This document shows, piece by piece, positions 44,192 to 60,008 of a DNA stretch of 64,000 bases. Positions within the stretch are counted from its first letter, which is position 1, and each line of letters starts with the position of its first letter. The notes beneath the pieces were generated by a model that was not told the DNA's origin, did not search any database, and saw only the letters and a program-made list of their open reading frames with translations. Origin of the DNA: Saccharothrix syringae (lineage in GTDB: Bacteria; Actinomycetota; Actinomycetes; Mycobacteriales; Pseudonocardiaceae); NCBI RefSeq assembly GCF_009498035.1, contig NZ_CP034550.1, forward strand, positions 4,898,001-4,962,000, read 5' to 3'. The position numbers and the translations under genes were made by a program.

Positions 44192-44455
44192 ATGAGACGC
44201 AAGACCAACCACCAGAGACGGCTGGTCGTGTTCTGCTTCCTGCTCGTGCTCGTCCCGCTCACCACCCAGCGCGCCCAGGGTGGACCGCCCTGCCGGACCA
44301 CCGGCGCGGAACTGCTCGCGGCGCTGTTCCTCCCGCTGGCGGTGCCCAGGTCGGCGTGGCGGTTGGCCCGCCTGGCGGAACTCGTTCCAGGGCACGTGGC
44401 CGAGCGGTCGGAGCCGGACCGGGGAGGCGAACCGTGCCCGACGGGGAAGCCGTAG
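44192..44455 (+). CDS. Small membrane or secreted peptide
   Basis: 87 codons from an ATG at 44192 with ACGGAG upstream. It has a basic start (MRRKTNHQRR), a hydrophobic segment VVFCFLLVLVPLTT, and a second hydrophobic patch LLAALFLPLAV. No family was recognised. It overlaps the next gene by 22 bp, which suggests coupling. The C-terminal third is low-complexity, so the true end may matter less than the first 50 residues. Confidence 0.5.
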   Translation: MRRKTNHQRRLVVFCFLLVLVPLTTQRAQGGPPCRTTGAELLAALFLPLAVPRSAWRLARLAELVPGHVAERSEPDRGGEPCPTGKP

Positions 44456-45153
44456 CGGTGCCGCGCCGGCGGCTGCTCGACGTGCTCGACGGCTGCCTGT
44501 CGCGGACGGGCACCCCGCCGGTCGCGGTGGTCTGCGCGCCCACCGGCGCCGGGAAGACGGCCCTGCTGACGACGTGGGCCCGGCACCGCGCGGACCCGGA
44601 CGCGCCGCGCACCGCCTGGGTGACGCTCGACGCGCGGCACGGTCACGCGGACCACCTCCGGTCGGCCATCCGCGACGCCGTGCTGCCGACCGCGGCACCG
44701 GGCGGGTTCTCGCCGGTCTGCCTGGTCCTCGACAACGCGCACGAGCTGTCCGGGCGCCCCGCTGCGCGGGAGCTGGCCCGCCTGGTCAGCCGCGCGGAGG
44801 TCCGGCTCGTACTGGCCGGCCGGTTCCCGTTCCCGCTGTCGCGGCAGTGGCTGCGGGACCGCGGCAGGCTCCGTGAAATCGGCCCCGAAGACCTGGCCTT
44901 CACCGCGCCGGAGGCCGCCGAGCTGCTGGGGGCCCACGGCATCCGGCTGCCCCCGGCCGAACTGGACGTGCTGCTGCGCTGCACGAAAGGGCAGGCCGCC
45001 CGGTTGCGCCTGGCCGTGACGTCCCTGGTGGCGCGGGGCAGGCCGGTCATGGGCGCCCCGGTCGCGGTGCCCGTGCCGAGGCGGTCGCCCGCGGGGGCCA
45101 CGACTGTGAACCCGGCCACCCCGCTCGGCGTGGCCCGCGCCCGAGGTCTGTGA
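44434..45153 (+). CDS. Isolated STAND (MalT/LuxR-type) ATPase domain
   Basis: 239 residues from a GTG at 44434 with GGGGAGG. It has Walker A CAPTGAGKTALLTTWA (K41, T42), Walker B-like VCLVLDNAHEL, and LVLAGRFPFPLSRQWLRDRG, matching residue for residue the order seen in the full-length regulator just downstream (GPAGSGKTTALATWA, CLVVDDVHVL, LVLAGRSTPPLRLSRLRLEG). It stops soon after the ATPase, with no TPR-like arm and no HTH. It may be a truncated duplicate or a dominant partner of the neighbour. Confidence 0.72.
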   Translation: MPDGEAVAVPRRRLLDVLDGCLSRTGTPPVAVVCAPTGAGKTALLTTWARHRADPDAPRTAWVTLDARHGHADHLRSAIRDAVLPTAAPGGFSPVCLVLDNAHELSGRPAARELARLVSRAEVRLVLAGRFPFPLSRQWLRDRGRLREIGPEDLAFTAPEAAELLGAHGIRLPPAELDVLLRCTKGQAARLRLAVTSLVARGRPVMGAPVAVPVPRRSPAGATTVNPATPLGVARARGL

Positions 45154-49932: not shown

Positions 49933-50622
49933 ATGCCCCTGGACCCCCTGCGCCCCGCCCCGCTGGTCGAACAGGCCGCCGCCCGCCTGCGAGCCCACAT
50001 CGCCGACGGCGAGTGGGCCGTCGGGACGAAGCTGCCCGGCGAAACCGCACTGGCCAAAGCCCTGGGCGTGGGCCGCTCAACCGTGCGGGAGGCGCTGCGC
50101 GCCCTGGCGGGTGCCGGGTTGGTGCGGGCCAGGCAGGGCGCGGGCGTGTTCGTCATCGCCACCGAGCCGCTGGAGGACTGGCCGACCCGCCTGCGCCGCT
50201 CGGCCGTCGCCGACGTGTACGAGGTGCGCATGATGATCGAGGTGCAAGCCGTCCGACTGGCCGCCGCCCGCCGCACCGACGCCGACATCACCGCGATCCA
50301 AGCCGCCCTGGAGGCACGCCGCGCAGCAGGCGCCCTGGACGACGACCAGTTCGTCCGAGCCGACATCGCCCTGCACGCCGCCGTGGTGGCCGCCGCGCAC
50401 AACACCGTCCTCGACGACCTGTTCGCCGAGTTCGTCCCGGTCCTGCACCGCGGCCTGGTCGATTTGGTGACCCTGCTCGACCTGCGTGCGAAGGAACCGG
50501 ACTGCGGGGACCGGTCCCATACCGCCCTGGTCACCGCGGTCGTCGCGGGCGACGCCGAGGTGGCGGGCCGCGTACTGGACGAGGAGCTGCGCAACACCCT
50601 CGCGCTGATCACCGCGAGCTGA
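49933..50622 (+). CDS. FadR-type GntR-family regulator
   Basis: 229 residues from an ATG at 49933 with GAGAGG. It has an N-terminal winged helix (LVEQAAARLRAHIADGEWAV, GTKLPGETALAKALGVGRST, VREALRALAGAGLV) and a C-terminal all-helical FCD domain (VADVYEVRMMIEVQAVRLAA, ADIALHAAVVAAAHN, SHTALVTAVVAGD; Asp and His residues that usually bind a metal or a carboxylate effector). It is divergent from leuA, with promoters that overlap, so cross-regulation is plausible. The effector is unknown. Confidence 0.88.
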   Translation: MPLDPLRPAPLVEQAAARLRAHIADGEWAVGTKLPGETALAKALGVGRSTVREALRALAGAGLVRARQGAGVFVIATEPLEDWPTRLRRSAVADVYEVRMMIEVQAVRLAAARRTDADITAIQAALEARRAAGALDDDQFVRADIALHAAVVAAAHNTVLDDLFAEFVPVLHRGLVDLVTLLDLRAKEPDCGDRSHTALVTAVVAGDAEVAGRVLDEELRNTLALITAS

Positions 50623-50977
50623 CGTTCGCGTTGGCCGGTCCTGGGCAGCCGAGGGACGCACACCGCACCGGTGTCCACCGTCCGATACGCCATCATGTAG
50701 GCGACCTGGTACTTTCGGCTCAATAAAGGACCGCAAACAGCGTGTTACGGCGGACCCGGGCGGCAGCGGGCTGGTCTGTCCGGTCGCGGTGGTCGTGAAC
50801 CATTCGGTCCGGGTTGGCGACACGGCATAAGCTATTACATTTCCCATGGTCATCCGGCATGTCGGCCGTGACTCCCTTCGGTCTATTCCGGCGGAACAGG
50901 GTGCGGGCTAGCCTGCCCTGGTCGAAATCCCTCAGTGCGACCTGCGGACTGCTCGCGGTCGAGGAGGTCGGGTAGGC
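50623..50977. other. AT-richer 355-bp gap before the peptide cassette
   Basis: This stretch is visibly poorer in GC than its surroundings (for example CTCAATAAAGGACC and GGCATAAGCTATTACATTTCC). It holds no supported gene. It ends with a GAGGAGG ribosome site for the HTH gene at 50978. A change in base composition at the edge of a cassette fits acquisition by transfer. Confidence 0.45.
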
Positions 50978-51382
50978 ATGACATCCAATGCGGCGCGTTC
51001 ATTGGGCGAGGAGCTGCGGCGGGTTCGGGTGGCCGAAGGTCTTTCGCTGCGCGCCATGGCCAGGCGGTTGGGATTGAGCGCCCACAGCGCTCTGGTCGAC
51101 TTCGAGCGGGGGCAGCGGGTGCCGTCGCCGGCGGTGCTGGCGGGGTATGTGCGGATCGACGGCGTCGACGCGGCGGTGCTGCGGACGATGCGGGAGGCGG
51201 TGGTCCGCGAGCGGCTGCGGGAGCGGTCGGGTGAGCCGGTCGTCGTGGTCGGGTCGCAGGTCGGCGGTCGTGTCGGCGGTCTGTGCGCGGTGCTGCGCGC
51301 GGCGGCGCGCCTGCTGTCGCGGTGCGCGGCGTGCGTGGAGGCCGCGGCGCGGTGGTTCGAGAAGCGCGGCGGCCGGGTGTGA
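50978..51382 (+). CDS. Cro/C1-type HTH regulator
   Basis: 134 residues from an ATG at 50978. The first 65 residues are a helix-turn-helix of XRE type (LGEELRRVRVAEGLSLRAMA, LGLSAHSALVDFERGQRVPS, LAGYVRIDGVD). The remainder is a predicted helix with Arg, Val and Cys residues, of unknown role. It sits directly upstream of the short-peptide gene and is followed by a small stem-loop, so it is the likely switch of the cassette. Confidence 0.8.
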   Translation: MTSNAARSLGEELRRVRVAEGLSLRAMARRLGLSAHSALVDFERGQRVPSPAVLAGYVRIDGVDAAVLRTMREAVVRERLRERSGEPVVVVGSQVGGRVGGLCAVLRAAARLLSRCAACVEAAARWFEKRGGRV

Positions 51383-51388
51383 GCCGCC

Positions 51389-51411
51389 CGGCTAAACCCA
51401 TTTTTTAGCCG
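51389..51411 (+). terminator. Rho-independent-like terminator after the HTH gene
   Basis: CGGCTAAA (51389-51396) pairs with TTTAGCCG (51404-51411); the loop side carries a run of T (51401-51406). It is 7 bases after the HTH stop. Confidence 0.6.
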
Positions 51412-51477
51412 TTCGCGCCGGCGCGCCCGGTGGTGTTCTGCGTCGTTCCGGACTTGTTCTGTTCCTGCTTCGCCCCG

Positions 51478-51507
51478 TTGAGAACGACCGAAAGGCGCTG
51501 TTAGGAA
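51478..51507 (+). promoter_or_regulatory. Candidate promoter of the peptide gene
   Basis: TTGAGA (51478-51483) and TAGGAA (51502-51507) with an 18-bp spacer, about 70 bp before the peptide ATG. Confidence 0.45.
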
Positions 51508-51574
51508 TTCGTTCCAGGCGTCCCGAGCGCGTTCGGGCGTCGCAGTGGGGAACGATCGCAAATGGGGGTGAACC

Positions 51575-51664
51575 ATGAAGAAGATCACCATGCGCAAGGT
51601 GGGCACGGTCAAGCTGACCAGCGCGGCGACCGCGCTGTACGGCGGCGGCCCCTGCCCGGTCTGA
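51575..51664 (+). CDS. Short peptide gene, candidate RiPP precursor (29 residues)
   Basis: An ATG at 51575, preceded by GGGGGTG, opens a 30-codon frame. The product starts MKKITMRKVGTVKLTS and ends AATALYGGGPCPV. It has a basic leader with no hydrophobic core, so it is not a signal peptide, then a triple-glycine boundary and a tiny Pro-Cys-Pro-Val tail with the only cysteine. It stands alone between its own promoter and a 15-bp-stem hairpin, directly before a membrane metalloprotease that carries an RRE/PqqD-like N-terminus. This is the usual arrangement of a ribosomally made, post-translationally processed peptide. Product identity and modification are unknown. Confidence 0.6.
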   Translation: MKKITMRKVGTVKLTSAATALYGGGPCPV

Positions 51665-51683
51665 TCCGGGAGCTTCCCGATCG

Positions 51684-51718
51684 CGCCGGCGGCGGGTCCG
51701 CGCGACCCGCCGCCGGCG
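51684..51718 (+). terminator. Strong hairpin between precursor and metalloprotease genes
   Basis: A 15-bp perfect stem (51684-51698 with 51704-51718) and a 5-nt loop, starting 20 bases after the peptide stop. It would let the peptide be made in excess of the downstream enzymes, as in many RiPP operons. Confidence 0.75.
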
Positions 51719-51739
51719 TCCGTCCCGGTCCCGGCACCC

Positions 51740-51769
51740 GAGCAGGAGCACACCGAGCAGGAGCACACC
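51740..51769 (+). repeat. Perfect 15-bp tandem duplication carrying the ribosome site
   Basis: GAGCAGGAGCACACC is repeated twice without mismatch (51740-51754, 51755-51769) and abuts the metalloprotease ATG at 51770. It duplicates the purine-rich ribosome site. Confidence 0.8.
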
Positions 51770-52966
51770 ATGCCGGAGAACGCGACCCACCCGGACGACG
51801 CCGCGCTGCGGTTCCACGCCCTGGTGTTCCACGACGAGGCCGACGGCGAGGTCACCGTGGGCCGGGTCGACACGGGGTCGTTCGTGGTGCTGCCCGCCGA
51901 CGGCGCGGCGCTGTTGCGGCGGCTGGTGGGCGGCGCGCCGCCGGCGGAGGCCGCCCGCTGGTACGCCGAGACCTACGGCGAGCCGGTCGACGTGGTCGAC
52001 TTCGCCGCGGACCTGGCGGAGCTGGGCTTCGTGCGCGGCGAGGGCGAGGCCGCCGCGACGCCGGCGCCGCTGCGCTGGACCCGGTTGGCGCGCGTGCTGT
52101 TCTCCCCCGGCGCGGCCGTCGCCTTCGTCGCGCTGCTGGCCTGCTGGGCGTGGGCGATGGCCGTCGACCCCGATCTGGTGCCGGGTTACCGGCACCTGTT
52201 CTTCACCGACTACCTGGCGGTGGTCGTGGTGACGATGTACCTGGGCCAGCTCCCGCTGATCCTGCTGCACGAGGCCGCGCACGCGTTGGCCGGTCGGCGG
52301 CTGGGGCTGCCCTCGACGCTGTCGATCGGGCGGCGGCTGCACTTCGTGGTGTTCCAGACGACGTTGAACGGCCTGGTGGGGGTGCCGCGCCGCAAGCGGT
52401 TCGTGCCGTTGTTGGCGGGCCTGTTCACCGACCTGGCCGTGATGGCGGCGTTGACGCTGTTCGCGTCGTGGGCCCGCCACCAGGGGCCGGCGCTCGCCAC
52501 GGCCGCGGGCGTGGCCCTGGGCCTGGTGTACCTGACCCTGCTGCGGGTGGTGTGGCAGTTCTGGTTCTTCCTGCAGACCGACGTGTACCACCTGATCGTC
52601 ACCGTGCTGGGGTGCGTCGACCTGCACACCACCGCCCGGCAGGTGCTGGCCAACCGCGTGGCCGCCGCGCTGGGGCGGCCACGTCCGCACGACCCGGCGT
52701 CGTGGCACCCGCGTGACCGCGCGGTGGCCCGCTGGTACTCGGTGCTGGTCGTGGCCGGGTACGCGTTCATGGTCACCGTGCTGGTGACGACGCTGCTGCC
52801 CGCGGCGGTGCACGCCACCGGGACCGTGGTGCTGCGCCTGGTCGACGGCGGCCAGGGCCCGGGGCTGCTCGTGGACAGCCTGCTGTTCCTGCTGTTCAGC
52901 GTCGGCGAGGTGGCGCTCGCCGGGTTCCTGTACCTGCGTGAGCGGCGCCGGGCGCGTCGCGCATGA
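51770..52966 (+). CDS. PqqD/RRE-like domain fused to a membrane HExxH metalloprotease (M50-like)
   Basis: 398 residues. Residues 5-90 (VFHDEADGEVTVGRVDTGSF, LPADGAALLRRLVGG, WYAETYGEPVDVVDFAADL, LGFVR) have the winged-helix pattern of PqqD/RRE-type peptide-binding domains. Seven or so hydrophobic spans follow from residue 108. The second contains LILLHEAAHALAG, a zinc HExxH motif (H167, E168, H171), and FTDLAVM near residue 219-225 offers a possible third ligand (D221). The plan resembles the peptide zinc metalloproteases of YydH type that act in modified-peptide pathways. It probably cuts or exports the 29-residue peptide at the membrane. It is coupled to the next gene by ATGA. Confidence 0.78.
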   Translation: MPENATHPDDAALRFHALVFHDEADGEVTVGRVDTGSFVVLPADGAALLRRLVGGAPPAEAARWYAETYGEPVDVVDFAADLAELGFVRGEGEAAATPAPLRWTRLARVLFSPGAAVAFVALLACWAWAMAVDPDLVPGYRHLFFTDYLAVVVVTMYLGQLPLILLHEAAHALAGRRLGLPSTLSIGRRLHFVVFQTTLNGLVGVPRRKRFVPLLAGLFTDLAVMAALTLFASWARHQGPALATAAGVALGLVYLTLLRVVWQFWFFLQTDVYHLIVTVLGCVDLHTTARQVLANRVAAALGRPRPHDPASWHPRDRAVARWYSVLVVAGYAFMVTVLVTTLLPAAVHATGTVVLRLVDGGQGPGLLVDSLLFLLFSVGEVALAGFLYLRERRRARRA

Positions 52967-55077
52967 CCACCCGGAGGCACCCCATGCCCGAACGTCCGAC
53001 CGGCCACGTGCTGCTGCTGGGCGGCCTGCGCCGCGACCGCGCCGAGGCCGCGGCCCGGCTGCCGCTGCCCGAGCCGTTGACGGGACCGATCTCCGCCGAC
53101 CGCCGCACCCGCGGCCCCTACACCGCCGCCGGGCACCTGCTGCGGCTGCTCGTTCCCGACGCGGTGCGCGAGCAACCCGACCTGGTGCGCGCCCACGAGG
53201 TGGAGATCCTCAGCGTCGCACCGGAGTTGCGCGACCTGGTGCCGGCGTCGGTGCGCACGCTCACCTCGCTGGCGGTGCCCGAGGAGCGCACCCGCTTCTA
53301 CTCGCGGATGCGGACGCTGCGCATCGCCCACGGCCTGGTGGAGTTCCTGCGCGACCGCCTGGCCGCGCTGGGCCGGCCGCGCTCGGTGGTGGTCGAGGAC
53401 CTGCACGCCGCCGACCCGACCGACCGGGAGTTCGTCTCGGTCCTGGTCCGCCGGGTCGACCCGGCGCTGCTCACCGTCGTGGTCGGCGCGGCGTCGGGGG
53501 ACTCCGGGCCCGAACGCGCCGACGCCGCGTCGGCGGAGACCGCGCGGTGGTGCCGGACCGTGCGGGTGCGGACCGTCGCGCGCCCGCCCGAGGCGGACCC
53601 GGCGACCCTGGCCGAGCGCTACGTCGCCGCCGACACCGCCGAGGACGACCCGCACGCCGTGGCCGCCTACGCCGCGCTGCCCGACGACGTGCGCCGCGCG
53701 TTGCACGACCGGCGGGCCGACGAGTTGACCGCGCAGGGCGGCTCTCTGCTGTGGGGCGCGGTGCCGCTGCACCGCCGCCTGGGCGGCGACCCGCTGGGCG
53801 CGGGGGTCAAGGCGCTGCTGTTCGCGTTGGACGACTGCATGAAGCTGGGTTTCTACGAGGCCACCGTCGAGCTGTGCCACCAGGGCCGGGCGCTGGTCGA
53901 CGCCGCCGAGCACCCGGACCTGTGGTGGTCGTTGACCACGAAGCTGCCCACGTCGCTGTCGGCGCTGGGCCGCGCCGCGGAGGCCGAGGCCGTCTGCGAC
54001 GAGGCCAGGGCGAACAGCGTGCGCACGGGCATCCACCTGCAGTGCGCCTACGCCACCGCGATGCTCTACACGCGACACCACGAGCCCGAGCGCCGCGACC
54101 ACGACAAGGCGCTGGGGTGGATCAACGAGGCCATCGTCATCGCGTCCCTGCTGCCCGACCCGGCGCAACGCGCGTTCAGCCAGGTCTTCCACCACAACGG
54201 CCTGGCACTGATCGAGGCGCACCGCGGCCGGCCGCTGGTCGCGCTGGACCTGGTCACCCGCGGCATCGCCGAGCTGGACCGCGCGCTGGGCGCCGACGAG
54301 CACCAGTTGCACCGGTCGGTGCTGCGCTACAACCGCGCCCAGGTCCTGGTGGGGCTGGGGCGGCTGGAGGAGGCGGCGGCGGAGTACCGGGCGGTGATCG
54401 CCGCGGACCCCGACTACCCGGAGTACCACTTCGACCTGGGCACGGTCCTGCGCCGGCTGGGCGACCTGGACGGCGCGATCGCCGAGTACACCGCGTGCAC
54501 GCGCCTGGGGCCGCCGTTCCCCGAGGTGTTCTACAACCGCGCCGACACCTTCGCCGAGGCGGGCGAGCACGCGCGGGCCGTCGCCGACTTCGAGTACGTG
54601 CTGGAGCTGGAGCCCGACCGGGTGGAGGCGCACCTCAACGTGGCGGCGCTGCACCTGGAGGCCGGCGACCCGCCCGCCGCGCGGGCGGCGGCCGAGCGCG
54701 GTTTGGGGCACCACCCGGAGCACGCGGGCCTGGTGGCCGTCCTGGCGCAGGCGCACGCCGACCTGGGCGACCCGGTGGCCGCGCGCCGCGGCTTCGACCG
54801 GGCGTTGGCCGCCGATCCCGACCTGGTCACGGCGTTGTCGGGGCGTGCGGCGCTGGCGCACGACACCGGTGACCGCGACACCGCGCTGGCGGATCTGGGG
54901 CACGCGATCGCGTTGGAGCCGGAGGACCCGGTGCTGCGGTTCAACCGGGCCTACGTGCACGTCCAGGCCCAGGAGTGGGACGAGGCGCTGGCGGACCTGG
55001 ACGAGGCGGTCCGGCTCGCGCCCGGGGACCCGGACATCGCCGCCGCCCGTGCGGACTGCCTGGCGCGCCTGTCCTGA
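52963..55077 (+). CDS. TPR protein with a degenerate ATPase-like N-terminus
   Basis: 704 residues from an ATG at 52963 inside the metalloprotease stop; a second ATG at residue 8 is possible. Residues 15-190 look like a STAND/AAA-type domain in which a Walker B-like segment VVVEDLHAADPTD remains but the P-loop is absent (LLLGGLRRDRAEAAARL). The C-terminal half has at least eight clear TPR units (for example AAAEYRAVIAADPDYPEYHF and ALADLDEAVRLAPGDPDIAA). It is likely a peptide- or partner-binding scaffold for the cassette. No HTH is present. Confidence 0.8.
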   Translation: MTTRRHPMPERPTGHVLLLGGLRRDRAEAAARLPLPEPLTGPISADRRTRGPYTAAGHLLRLLVPDAVREQPDLVRAHEVEILSVAPELRDLVPASVRTLTSLAVPEERTRFYSRMRTLRIAHGLVEFLRDRLAALGRPRSVVVEDLHAADPTDREFVSVLVRRVDPALLTVVVGAASGDSGPERADAASAETARWCRTVRVRTVARPPEADPATLAERYVAADTAEDDPHAVAAYAALPDDVRRALHDRRADELTAQGGSLLWGAVPLHRRLGGDPLGAGVKALLFALDDCMKLGFYEATVELCHQGRALVDAAEHPDLWWSLTTKLPTSLSALGRAAEAEAVCDEARANSVRTGIHLQCAYATAMLYTRHHEPERRDHDKALGWINEAIVIASLLPDPAQRAFSQVFHHNGLALIEAHRGRPLVALDLVTRGIAELDRALGADEHQLHRSVLRYNRAQVLVGLGRLEEAAAEYRAVIAADPDYPEYHFDLGTVLRRLGDLDGAIAEYTACTRLGPPFPEVFYNRADTFAEAGEHARAVADFEYVLELEPDRVEAHLNVAALHLEAGDPPAARAAAERGLGHHPEHAGLVAVLAQAHADLGDPVAARRGFDRALAADPDLVTALSGRAALAHDTGDRDTALADLGHAIALEPEDPVLRFNRAYVHVQAQEWDEALADLDEAVRLAPGDPDIAAARADCLARLS

Positions 55078-55092
55078 GCGGCTGTTCCCGAC

Positions 55093-55850
55093 CTACTGGG
55101 ATTGGGTGAGTCGGCGGCTGGTGATGCGGATCATGGACCAGCGGACCATGGCCTCGTGGTGGCGAGGCAGTCGTTCGTCGTCGCGGACGCAGCGGCGGTG
55201 TCCGGTGACCCACGCCAACGTGCGCTCCACCGCCCATCTGCGGGGCAGCACGGTGAAGTGGGGCAGCGTCTCCCGGCGGTGTCGCGCATCCGGCGCGGCA
55301 GGCTGCGGGCGGCGACCCGGTCCTGCGTCGAGGCCGGGGTCACCAACACCGCCACCAGCAGGCCCAGGGTGTCCACGACGATGTGCCGCTTGCGGCCCGC
55401 GACCTTCTTCCCGCCGTCCCAACCTCGGGTGGCCTTCCCGACGGTGGCGGCGGCGCGCGCCGATCGGGAGTCCACGCCGGCCCTCCACCAAGCGGACGCG
55501 GTCACGCACCGCGTCGAGCAGTCGCTGCGACGCACCAACCTTCTTCCGGGCGGCGAAACGCTGGTAAACCGTGGTCCAGGGCGGGAAGTCCACGGGCAGC
55601 GCCCGCCATTTGATCCCGTTGCCGACCACGTACGGGATCGCGTCCACGATCACCCGACGGCAGGGCTTCTCCCACCGCCCGCCCCGACCCGCCAGGCACG
55701 CCGGATCGGGCAGCAGCGGGTCCCGCTCGGCCCACCGGGCGTCGGTGGGATACCGCGCCGCCCGCACGGCGGGCCGGTGGGACGCGGCCAGGCGGCAGCA
55801 GGGGGCACCCACGGTGGACCCGCCCGCGGGCATCGGGCACGACAACAACG
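55093..55850 (-). pseudogene. Decayed IS5-family (DUF4096/DDE) transposase
   Basis: Three collinear pieces on the minus strand. (a) About 55475-55735: RWAERDPLLPDP, CRRVIVDAIPYVVGNGIKWR, ALPVDFPPWTTVYQRF. (b) About 55275-55480, shifted frame: SARAAATVGKATRGWDGGKK, GRKRHIVVDTLGLLVAVLV. (c) About 55093-55264, back in the first frame: LPRRWAVERTLAWVTGHRRC. Two frameshifts and a missing middle part of the DDE domain make it non-functional. It lies 16 bp after the TPR gene. Confidence 0.85.
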
Positions 55851-55901
55851 GAACTCCTGGCAGAGCGGCGCTTCGACAACGTCCGATCTACCAGGAGTTC
55901 C
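55850..55901. repeat. 11-bp perfect inverted repeat at the IS remnant edge
   Basis: GGAACTCCTGG (55850-55860) and CCAGGAGTTCC (55891-55901), 30 bp apart, just upstream of the transposase remnant. It could be an IS-internal hairpin or end; no target duplication was identified. Confidence 0.5.
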
Positions 55902-57257: not shown

Positions 57258-60008
57258 CTACTCGGCGAGTCCGGTGGTCCGGGCGGGTCGGGTTCCGCCG
57301 AGGTCGTCGAGTCGCCGCTGGACGCGGTCGGCGTCGGTGTCACGGCCCTGCTCCCGGTACAGCTCCAGGGCCGCCCGCCACGCCGTGCGGGCCCGGTGGG
57401 GTTGGTCGAGCGCCGAATGGGTGTGCCCGAGGCGTTCCAGGGTGTCCGCCGCCTGGTGGGTGTTGTCGGTTTCCCGGAACAGGGCCAACGCCTCGGTGTA
57501 GCGGTCCAGCGCGGCCTCGTGGCGGCCCGTGGAGCCGGCGGTGGTGCCGAGGACGCTCAGCGTGGACGCTTGGCCGGTGTGGTCGCCGTGCTGCCGTTGC
57601 ACGCTCAGCGCCCGGGTGCAGCGGCTCTCCGCCGCGCGGTGGTCGCCCGCGACGCCGCGGAGTTCGCCCAGCAGGGCCAGGGCCGCGGCCAGGCGCACCG
57701 GCTGTCCGACGTGGCGGTAACCGCGCACCGCGTGCCGGGCGTGGACGAGGCCGTTGGCCACGTCGTGGTGGCGCAGGGCGGCTTCGGCCAGGGCGTAGTG
57801 GGTGTGGGTCCGCTGGACTTCGTCCGGTGCCACCAGCAGCGAGCTGCGGAGGTGGACGAGTGCGTCGGCGTAGCCGCCGGTGTGCGAGTGGGCCAGGCCG
57901 AGACCGCGCAGGGTGGTGACTTCGCCGGTGGGGTCGTCGGAGTGCGGTGCCGCGGCGTGGCCGACTTCCCACGTGGTGAGGTGGTCGTCGAGCAGGCCGC
58001 GGCGCAGGAGGTACTTCCCGAGGACGACGGCGAGCTTCCAGGCGTGGTCGTGTTCTCGTTGGTCGAGCGCGTGGCGCTGGACGGCGAGCAGCGTCGGGTG
58101 TTCGGCGTCGAACCAGCGCATCGCCTCGGCGCGGGTGCTCGCGGGGTACAGCGGAGCCGATCCCGTGGTGGGAGGTGTGAGTGGGACGGGGTCCCGGGTG
58201 GGCGCTAAGGCGCGGTAGGCGTTGTGCGCCGTGTGCAGGTAGAAGTCGAACACCCGGTGCAGTGCGGCCTGCCGGGTCGGTTCGGGCAGCTCCCGGGCGG
58301 CGGTGATGGCGTAGGCGCGGACGAGGTCGTGCATGCCGTGGCGACCGTTCGGGCGGCGCTCGACCAGCGAAGCGTCCTCCAGGGCGCGCAGCACCTTGCG
58401 GGTTTGCGGGACGGACGCCCCGATGAGCGAGGCCGCGGCCGCGAGCCCGTGGTCCGGTCCGGGTGCGATGCCCAGCAGCGCGAAAGCGGTGCGCTGCTCG
58501 TCGGTGAGGTGGCGCAGCGACCAGGACAGCACCGCGGGCAGGCTCGCCGTCGGGTCGTCGTCGTCCAGCGCGTCGAGCCCGGTCTCGCGCAGCTCGGCGG
58601 CCAACTCGGCCAGTTCCCGGCCCGTGCGGGCCGTGAGGATGCCCAGGGCCAGCGGGAACCCGCCGCACAGCGCGATCAGCTCGTCGGCGGCCCGCTCGTC
58701 GGCGGTGACGCGGTCGGCGCCCAGCAGCGCGCGGGACTCCGCCGCGGTGAGCACGTCCAGGGACAGCGCCCGGGCACCGTGGCGCGCCACCAGCGTCGGC
58801 AGCCGGTGGCGGCTGGTGACCAGCACCGTGCAGGAGGCGGTGCCGGGCAGGAGCGGGACGACCTGGTCGGCGGTGGCGGCGTTGTCCAGCACGATCAGCA
58901 TCCGCCGGTCGGCGACCAGGCTGCGGTAGCGGGCGGCCTGGGCGTGCGGGTCGACCGGTAGGTGGGCGGGGGTCACGCCGAGCGCGTCGAGGAACCCGCG
59001 TACCGCCACCGCCGGGTCCATGGGCGGCCCGTCGGGGCTGAAGCCGCGCAGGTCGACGAACAGCTGCCCGTCGGGGAAGCGGTCGATGTTGCGGTGGGCC
59101 CAGGTCAGGGCGAGCCAGGTCTTGCCGATGCCGCCGGCGCCGCCGATCGCGGAGATCACCGTCGTGCCGCGGTCGTCCAGGGCCGCCAGCTGGTCGGTGC
59201 GGCCGATGAACGAGCGGGGGACGGAGGGCAGTTGCCGCGGTACGGCTGGGGCCTCGGTGTCGGCGGGGGACAGGGCGGGGTCGGCGGTGAGGATGCGCTG
59301 GTGCAGCTCTTGCAGCGCCGGGCCGGGATCGGTGCCCAGTTCGTCGGCCAGATGTCGTCGGACGCGGTGGTAGTGGGACAGGGCGTCGGCCTGGCGGCCG
59401 GACCGGTACAGCGCCAGCACCAGCCGCCCGGCGACCCGTTCGTCCAGCGGCTCGGCCTCGGCCCGCGCGACCAGTTCGGGCAGCAGTTCGTGGTGACGGC
59501 CGCAGGCCAGCGCCCAGTCGGCCCGGTCCGCCTCGGCGGCGTCCCGGTCCCGGCGCAACCGCTCCCGGACCGCTTGCGCCCACGGGGTGTCCAACTCCGC
59601 CAGGGGCTCGCCCCGCCACAGCTCCAGCGCGTCCTCGACCTGGCCCAGGGCGGTGTGGGGGTCCGGCTGCCGGCGGGCCGAGGCCAGCAGCCGGTGGAAG
59701 CGGTGCAGGTCGACGGTGTCCGGGCCGGTGTCCAGCAGGTAGCCGCCGTCCCGGCGGAGGATGGCGAGCCCGGTCGGGGCCAGGGTTCGGCGCAGGTGGG
59801 TCAGGTACGTGCGCAGGGTTGAGCGGGCCCTGACCGGTGGCCGCTCACCCCAGACGCGGTCGACCAGCACGTCCGCTGGTAGCAGGCGCCCCGCGTCGAC
59901 GGCCAGTGCGGCCAGCACCGACCGTCGTCGGGCGTGGCCCACCGGGAGTTCCCGGTCTCCCTGCCGGGCCTCCAGCGTGCCCAGGACGCCGACCACGACA
60001 CGGTGCAC
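57258..60008 (-). CDS. SARP-NB-ARC-TPR (AfsR-type) regulator, second copy
   Basis: 916 residues from a GTG at 60008 preceded by GGGGGA; a GTG four codons on (59996) has better spacing and is equally possible. Winged helix VVVGVLGTLEAR to LRRDGGYLLD, BTAD (DLHRFHRLLASARRQ, HYHRVRRHLADELGTDPGPA), NB-ARC with Walker A GGAGGIGKTWLALTWAHRN and MLIVLDNAATADQVVPLLPG, then TPR repeats to the C-terminus. It has the same architecture as the gene at 20050-22755 but is clearly diverged. It is divergent from the LOG gene with a 137-bp gap. The target genes are not obvious. Confidence 0.9.
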   Translation of the reverse strand: MHRVVVGVLGTLEARQGDRELPVGHARRRSVLAALAVDAGRLLPADVLVDRVWGERPPVRARSTLRTYLTHLRRTLAPTGLAILRRDGGYLLDTGPDTVDLHRFHRLLASARRQPDPHTALGQVEDALELWRGEPLAELDTPWAQAVRERLRRDRDAAEADRADWALACGRHHELLPELVARAEAEPLDERVAGRLVLALYRSGRQADALSHYHRVRRHLADELGTDPGPALQELHQRILTADPALSPADTEAPAVPRQLPSVPRSFIGRTDQLAALDDRGTTVISAIGGAGGIGKTWLALTWAHRNIDRFPDGQLFVDLRGFSPDGPPMDPAVAVRGFLDALGVTPAHLPVDPHAQAARYRSLVADRRMLIVLDNAATADQVVPLLPGTASCTVLVTSRHRLPTLVARHGARALSLDVLTAAESRALLGADRVTADERAADELIALCGGFPLALGILTARTGRELAELAAELRETGLDALDDDDPTASLPAVLSWSLRHLTDEQRTAFALLGIAPGPDHGLAAAASLIGASVPQTRKVLRALEDASLVERRPNGRHGMHDLVRAYAITAARELPEPTRQAALHRVFDFYLHTAHNAYRALAPTRDPVPLTPPTTGSAPLYPASTRAEAMRWFDAEHPTLLAVQRHALDQREHDHAWKLAVVLGKYLLRRGLLDDHLTTWEVGHAAAPHSDDPTGEVTTLRGLGLAHSHTGGYADALVHLRSSLLVAPDEVQRTHTHYALAEAALRHHDVANGLVHARHAVRGYRHVGQPVRLAAALALLGELRGVAGDHRAAESRCTRALSVQRQHGDHTGQASTLSVLGTTAGSTGRHEAALDRYTEALALFRETDNTHQAADTLERLGHTHSALDQPHRARTAWRAALELYREQGRDTDADRVQRRLDDLGGTRPARTTGLAE

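Follow-up and report, generated by a model that had tools for sequence, protein, structure and literature searches.

What is a gene for a 29-residue peptide doing just upstream of a membrane protease gene in the actinomycete Saccharothrix syringae? The question was raised by a 64,000-nucleotide stretch of DNA (contig NZ_CP034550.1, positions 4,898,001 to 4,962,000; here called the window), in which an earlier note had proposed an uncharacterised cassette for a ribosomally synthesized and post-translationally modified peptide (RiPP). The proposed cassette comprised a helix-turn-helix (HTH) gene, the short peptide gene, a metalloprotease gene and a tetratricopeptide repeat (TPR) gene. All four open reading frames (ORFs) do occur where the note had placed them, and the latter three probably constitute a minimal RiPP-type family, in which a precursor peptide is accompanied by a protease bearing a RiPP recognition element (RRE) and by a TPR protein. 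Comparison across loci brings out a family of precursors with a retained Tyr and Cys, a constant TPR neighbor and, in structural models, the fusion of an RRE to the protease. The locus is laid out as follows.

50978–51382, plus strand: HTH gene of the XRE type (HTH_31, E 4.7e-10), a probable local regulator and accessory to the cassette
51575–51664, plus strand: precursor-like peptide gene, 29 aa (MKKITMRKVGTVKLTSAATALYGGGPCPV; leader MKKITMRKVGTVKLT, core SAATALYGGGPCPV)
51665–51769, plus strand: GC-rich hairpin in the intergenic stretch from the peptide gene to the protease gene
51770–52966, plus strand: protease gene, 398 aa, with a predicted RRE domain (about residues 8–99) and a site-2-type membrane metalloprotease (about residues 101–398; HExxH at 167–171)
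52963–55077, plus strand: TPR gene, 704 aa, its N-terminal domain similar to an AAA/STAND ATPase but lacking Walker A
55093–55848, minus strand: IS4/5-type transposase ORF

With the protease as query, 21 of 99 genomes gave matches, which fell into two groups by score: group A, consisting of the window and 13 places at 42–51% identity, and group B at 25–36% identity. To these were added 80 named loci obtained by scanning a public genome collection; they are the best of the 93 that were confirmed and therefore a set that favors close relatives. The window, the 13 relatives and the named loci make 94 loci, of which 90 are distinct (L030/L086, L032/L123, L035/L090 and L040/L126 are duplicates). 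Genes were called with a GC-frame script in which start codons are guessed. Close species are not independent, and because some loci stop at contig ends, neighbors missing there are undercounted.

Judged by its sequence, the short ORF is a member of a conserved precursor family. When small ORFs near homologs of the metalloprotease were inspected, as the earlier note had recommended, a short ORF with the leader motif was found upstream of the protease gene in all 94 fetched loci (90 distinct), giving 107 peptides. The leader is constant, with the consensus MKKIxVRKxGxVRLT, and the core is variable. The 87 distinct cores are 10–25 residues long, and every one contains both Tyr and Cys; Tyr occurs just once in 76, and 57 have their first Tyr seven residues past the LT of the leader. 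The search demanded the leader motif, which was widened after ORFs had been listed in L028, L053, L083 and L125, and it made no requirement for Tyr or Cys in the core. The GGGPCPV tail that had been put forward as the family's mark proved to vary, and it is the leader, together with the core Tyr and Cys, that is conserved.

The placement of the motif is also specific. In its strict form it precedes the protease gene in 79 of the 80 named loci, while the five matches elsewhere in 2.52 Mb (both strands) are all tandem paralogs further upstream in L088 and L094, and none occurred in 4000 shuffled windows (mononucleotide shuffles). A peptide profile that included the window peptide found one place in the 10.9-Mb genome from which the window comes at E 3.8e-15, the next being at 0.49 (150 of 335 candidates scored). 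Substitutions in the leader favor the third codon position (5693, 2830 and 9139 at positions 1, 2 and 3, over 2219 non-independent pairs). The arrangement by which a RiPP system is recognized, an encoded short precursor with a conserved leader and a variable core beside processing genes, is found here. Some loci carry the precursor gene in tandem, with eight copies in L088, six in L094 and two in L065. In L088 and L094 the leader shows the variant TET in place of xGx, and the tails are varied and often Gly-rich. These tandem precursors are good candidates for product discovery.

The protease encoded behind the peptide, according to its structural model, joins an RRE and a site-2-type membrane metalloprotease in one protein. 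The front of the model matches TbiB1, TfuB1 and PqqD, the best matches of the domain being the lasso RRE proteins TbiB1 and TfuB1, and the back matches the site-2 proteases RseP and SpoIVFB. Residues H167, E168 and H171 are invariant across a 63-row alignment, and the features that define an M50 site-2 protease, an HExxH motif within a membrane helix and the corresponding fold, are both present. A BFVD search returned a single weak match, to an M50 phage protein.

The third member, the TPR gene, directly follows the protease gene in all 80 named loci and in the 13 relatives, although gene calling split it in L029 and L098 and gave a fragment in L116. In the window the two genes share the ATGA overlap that had been described as coupling them; among the named loci the identical 4-base overlap occurs 17 times, and the spacing is within 50 bp 55 times. 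Pfam finds TPR matches in the 704-residue protein, AAA_16 matches it weakly (20.5 bits against a cut-off of 32.6), and its model is confident (predicted local distance difference test score 94.4). A Walker A pattern occurs in the first 260 residues of none of 55 TPR homologs, and thus the front domain, if it is an ATPase relative, is probably inactive.

Many soil actinomycetes carry the cassette, and this breadth points to a family of peptides as its products. Homologs at E ≤0.001 numbered 930 for the protease and 898 for the TPR protein, counts that may include wider relatives, with about 8000 candidates scored per search. The named loci carry 23 genus names, and the 120 best matches of each protein are mostly called hypothetical, PqqD family or tetratricopeptide repeat protein. 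In a class-wide draw of 197 genomes, the protease was found in 10 at E 0.001 and in four at group A strength (at most nine candidates scored per genome).

Within the genus, the peptide and the protease go together. Among 25 congeneric genomes, the six with a strong peptide match (E <1e-9) are the same six with a strong protease match (E <1e-70); nine further genomes gave weak peptide-profile matches (E 1.4e-4 to 0.043), and the TPR gene (E <1e-80) is found in ten. In the four of these ten that fall outside the six (G009, G011, G019 and G023), a peptide-like short ORF directly adjoins the TPR gene, without an intervening protease gene; three of these peptides are weak profile matches, and the one in G011 came to light when ORFs were read. 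All retain MK(K/S)IRIR, and none of the four has a Tyr; Cys is missing from one and the LT of the leader is altered in three. A group B protease is encoded at another place in two of these genomes, G009 and G023. The simplest reading is that the protease was lost once and that the core then decayed, and the Tyr would therefore be tied to a protease-dependent function. This loss counts as one event, since the four congeners may share one ancestor.

Several observations weigh against a minimal RiPP-type family. The RRE-like segment came through the structure test, and sequence profiles were supportive, though weakly so: the Pfam PqqD match in the 398-residue protein is below threshold (17.1 against 23.4 bits, E 0.007), PqqD matched just four of 63 homologs at E 0.01, and the NCBIfam lasso PqqD model matched six of 63 at E 0.1. 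NCBIfam gave no match to the 398-residue protein itself, and no Foldseek match reached E 0.001. Moreover, no known modifying enzyme was found to be universal across the loci, so the core may not be modified at all; the gene groups common to more than seven of the 80 named loci, the larger groups being those annotated, were limited to the protease, the TPR protein, flavin-reductase-like proteins and mixed regulators, and divergent families could be missed. The TPR protein, in turn, may serve an independent role, because homologs exist elsewhere in the class for which neither a protease nor a peptide was found in the vicinity (L132–L140) and the four congeners keep the TPR gene without this protease. 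These class-wide homologs sit in three recurring chromosomal settings, some of them next to genes reading as ftsY and smc or purU, and some match by the TPR half alone; they perhaps reflect an older role of the TPR family.

If the cassette does process a peptide, then by analogy with RRE biology and with the daptide protease MpaP the following course can be envisaged. The basic N-terminal leader, MKKIxVRKxGxVRLT, would dock onto the N-terminal RRE domain of the protease, and the site-2-type active site, formed by HExxH and a downstream TD.Y motif, would cleave the leader near LTSAA at the membrane. Cleavage would release a core of some 10–25 residues holding the Tyr and Cys, which might then be exported. 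The TPR protein, resembling a relative of dead ATPases, would be co-transcribed and would probably act as a scaffold or hand over the precursor or product, and the flavin-reductase-like protein would probably add a redox step in about a third of loci. The Tyr or Cys may also be modified.

Such a modification is central to the boldest reading of the locus, namely a new RiPP class in which the cassette's machinery (the RRE-protease, the TPR protein and sometimes the flavin-reductase-like protein) chemically links or alters the core Tyr and Cys, by a kind of chemistry outside the repertoire of known RiPP enzymes. A new class of this kind is possible but less likely than not. The note's claim that standard RiPP enzymes are absent was upheld within the limits of a Pfam scan of the called genes at 42–64 kb, save two small ones (44192–44452 and 44458–45150): radical SAM, YcaO, lanthipeptide and graspetide families were not found among them. 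Signaling without chemical modification would account for the same genes in another way. TPR proteins serve as peptide receptors in the Rap/Phr pairs of Bacillus, and here the protease would trim the peptide, the peptide would be secreted, and the TPR protein would be its receptor, with a nearby HTH or SARP-type gene carrying the response. The modeled TPR array could, like the Rap receptors, bind a peptide; Rap structures do match it, but as generic TPRs only. A Pfam scan of the TPR protein matched no DNA-binding family. On balance, signaling of this kind is unlikely.

The short ORF might instead never yield a product and serve as a translated attenuator, where ribosome stalling at its Cys or Tyr codons governs the folding of the hairpin and hence expression of the protease–TPR operon. 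Cys-rich attenuator ORFs do occur in mycobacteria, and a Cys-containing short ORF followed by a conserved hairpin is what such a model expects. The strong hairpin that had been noticed behind the peptide gene is present, with a folding energy of −57.5 kcal/mol (z −3.1) that none of 200 dinucleotide shuffles equaled, and in relatives 62 of 75 post-peptide stretches have z < −2 (mononucleotide shuffles), compared with 11 of 142 random places and, within those loci, eight of 75 stretches between other genes; this conservation also counts in favor of the RiPP-type family. However, the hairpin is not terminator-like, no intrinsic terminator having been found, and for the same reason it may instead set the ratio of peptide message to protease message. 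The conserved part of the peptide is its N-terminal leader, a conservation that is partly the result of selection since the search demanded the motif. Up to eight tandem copies with differing cores, and an adjoining RRE-type protease that has no place in the model, also speak against attenuation, which is thus very improbable.

Least probable of all, and hardly to be expected, is a divergent cluster of a known RiPP class that uses site-2 or M50 proteases, namely the daptides, epipeptides or pearlins. The daptide source (PMC10036551) describes MpaP as an RRE fused to a site-2 protease and proposes it as the leader remover, which makes it the nearest known relative by architecture: the RRE stands at the N-terminus of an intramembrane protease, and short precursor genes lie nearby, sometimes several. 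Because this fusion is already published there for daptides, the protease architecture is not new. The cassette differs from daptides in its leader motif and in its constant TPR partner. The daptide-invariant C-terminal Thr is found in one of 107 peptides, that of the window ending in Val, and no ELExMEAP-like leader was seen by eye among the listed peptides. Oxidative decarboxylase genes and the dehydrogenase, aminotransferase, methyltransferase and radical SAM families were absent from the scanned window genes. A second source (PMC10885120) describes EpeP of epipeptides and TglG/TmoG of pearlins as M50 proteases acting on ribosomal precursors. The cassette similarly places an M50-type membrane protease beside a gene for a putative ribosomal precursor; unlike in these systems, its protease is fused to an RRE, and neither a radical SAM epimerase nor a peptide aminoacyl-tRNA ligase was seen among the scanned window genes. 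In lasso systems, where the RRE proteins TbiB1 and TfuB1 recruit the leader for a leader peptidase, the resemblance is in the fold of the RRE; the protease here is a membrane metalloprotease, and a lasso cyclase was not seen among the scanned genes. A minimal RiPP-type family with its own precursor and TPR partner, and with daptide enzymes not found among the genes scanned, therefore remains preferred to a variant of these classes, and a new class would be a possibility if a modification were found. No published description of the peptide–protease–TPR family was found in the open-licence literature, an absence that is not proof. If the peptides are made, then a three-gene cassette has been overlooked, as far as searched, in producers as well studied as Streptomyces and Kitasatospora, and it would offer a clean system for minimal RiPP machinery, for the function of RRE-membrane proteases and for the reason why Tyr and Cys are kept.

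The flavin-reductase-like gene occurs in 32 of the 80 named loci, in 28 of them on the same strand and within 400 bp past the TPR gene; that of L054 matches PF01613 at E 4e-37. No convincing remnant of it was found in the window (best E 0.22). A link between this gene and the place of the Cys relative to the Tyr was considered and rejected (Fisher p 0.53). Genes for SARP-type regulators cluster near the cassette, which speaks for the RiPP-type reading: they make up 27 of the 373 genes lying no more than three genes from the TPR gene (24 of 80 loci), as against three of the 467 further off.

The group B proteins are RRE-M50 proteins homologous to the window protease over most of their length, and unlike the window cassette they have no TPR gene called alongside. 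In six of the 11 group B loci examined (L041, L043, L045, L047, L050 and L051) a short upstream ORF with a related leader was observed, for example MKKLVVRRLETVKTSAATSCSVVVA in L050 and L051; these ORFs are perhaps a sister peptide family. In the other five (L042, L044, L046, L048 and L049) a ThiF-like gene precedes the M50 gene, and no peptide with the leader motif was found; Pfam, run on L042 alone of the five, gave ThiF at E 3e-50. Genes reading as HMG-CoA-synthase or ketosynthase-like lie near the M50 gene in L043, L045 and L047, with acyl-carrier-like and hydrolase-like genes, by the same kind of reading, in L045.

The HTH gene and the transposase are local features of the window. The HTH gene had been counted as a part of the cassette and is not core to it, as the window type occurs in four of the 80 named loci and five of the 13 nearby relatives (two loci being in both counts). 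The closest relative, L064 of Actinokineospora enzanensis (identity 69% for the protease, 73% for the TPR protein and 56% for the HTH protein), does have the same HTH–peptide–protease–TPR order. Upstream of the peptide gene, the window (before 51575) and L064 (7680–7826) share the stretches TTCTGTTC and GTTGxGAAC, which are perhaps an operator or promoter. The promoter that had been attributed to the peptide gene itself was not confirmed, with no sigma-70-like site at 51370–51800. A wider search for upstream motifs returned chiefly ribosome-binding-site and start-codon words, with TGTTCTG in nine of 101 regions. An Rfam scan of 50600–55400 gave no matches, and a defense-family scan gave nothing beyond the HTH and weak TPR matches.

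The claim of an AT-richer upstream gap was borne out, the gap before the HTH gene having 64.2% GC and that before the peptide gene 63.0%, against 75.3% for the window. Mobility, which had been read from such signs, is no more than suggested by these gaps, the patchy occurrence (six of 25 congeneric genomes) and the single transposase ORF, for which no clear pair of terminal inverted repeats was found. Around the cassette, the genes at 42–64 kb include those for a LuxR-type regulator, an isopropylmalate-synthase-like protein, a GntR regulator, a family-18 glycosyl hydrolase and the IS4/5-type transposase, and a large SARP/AfsR-type regulator is encoded on the minus strand at 57261–60008; two of the nine proteins in the later Pfam scan of this region matched no family. 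Immediately beyond the transposase ORF, at 55850–55901, lies a 19-nt inverted repeat with a 14-nt loop.

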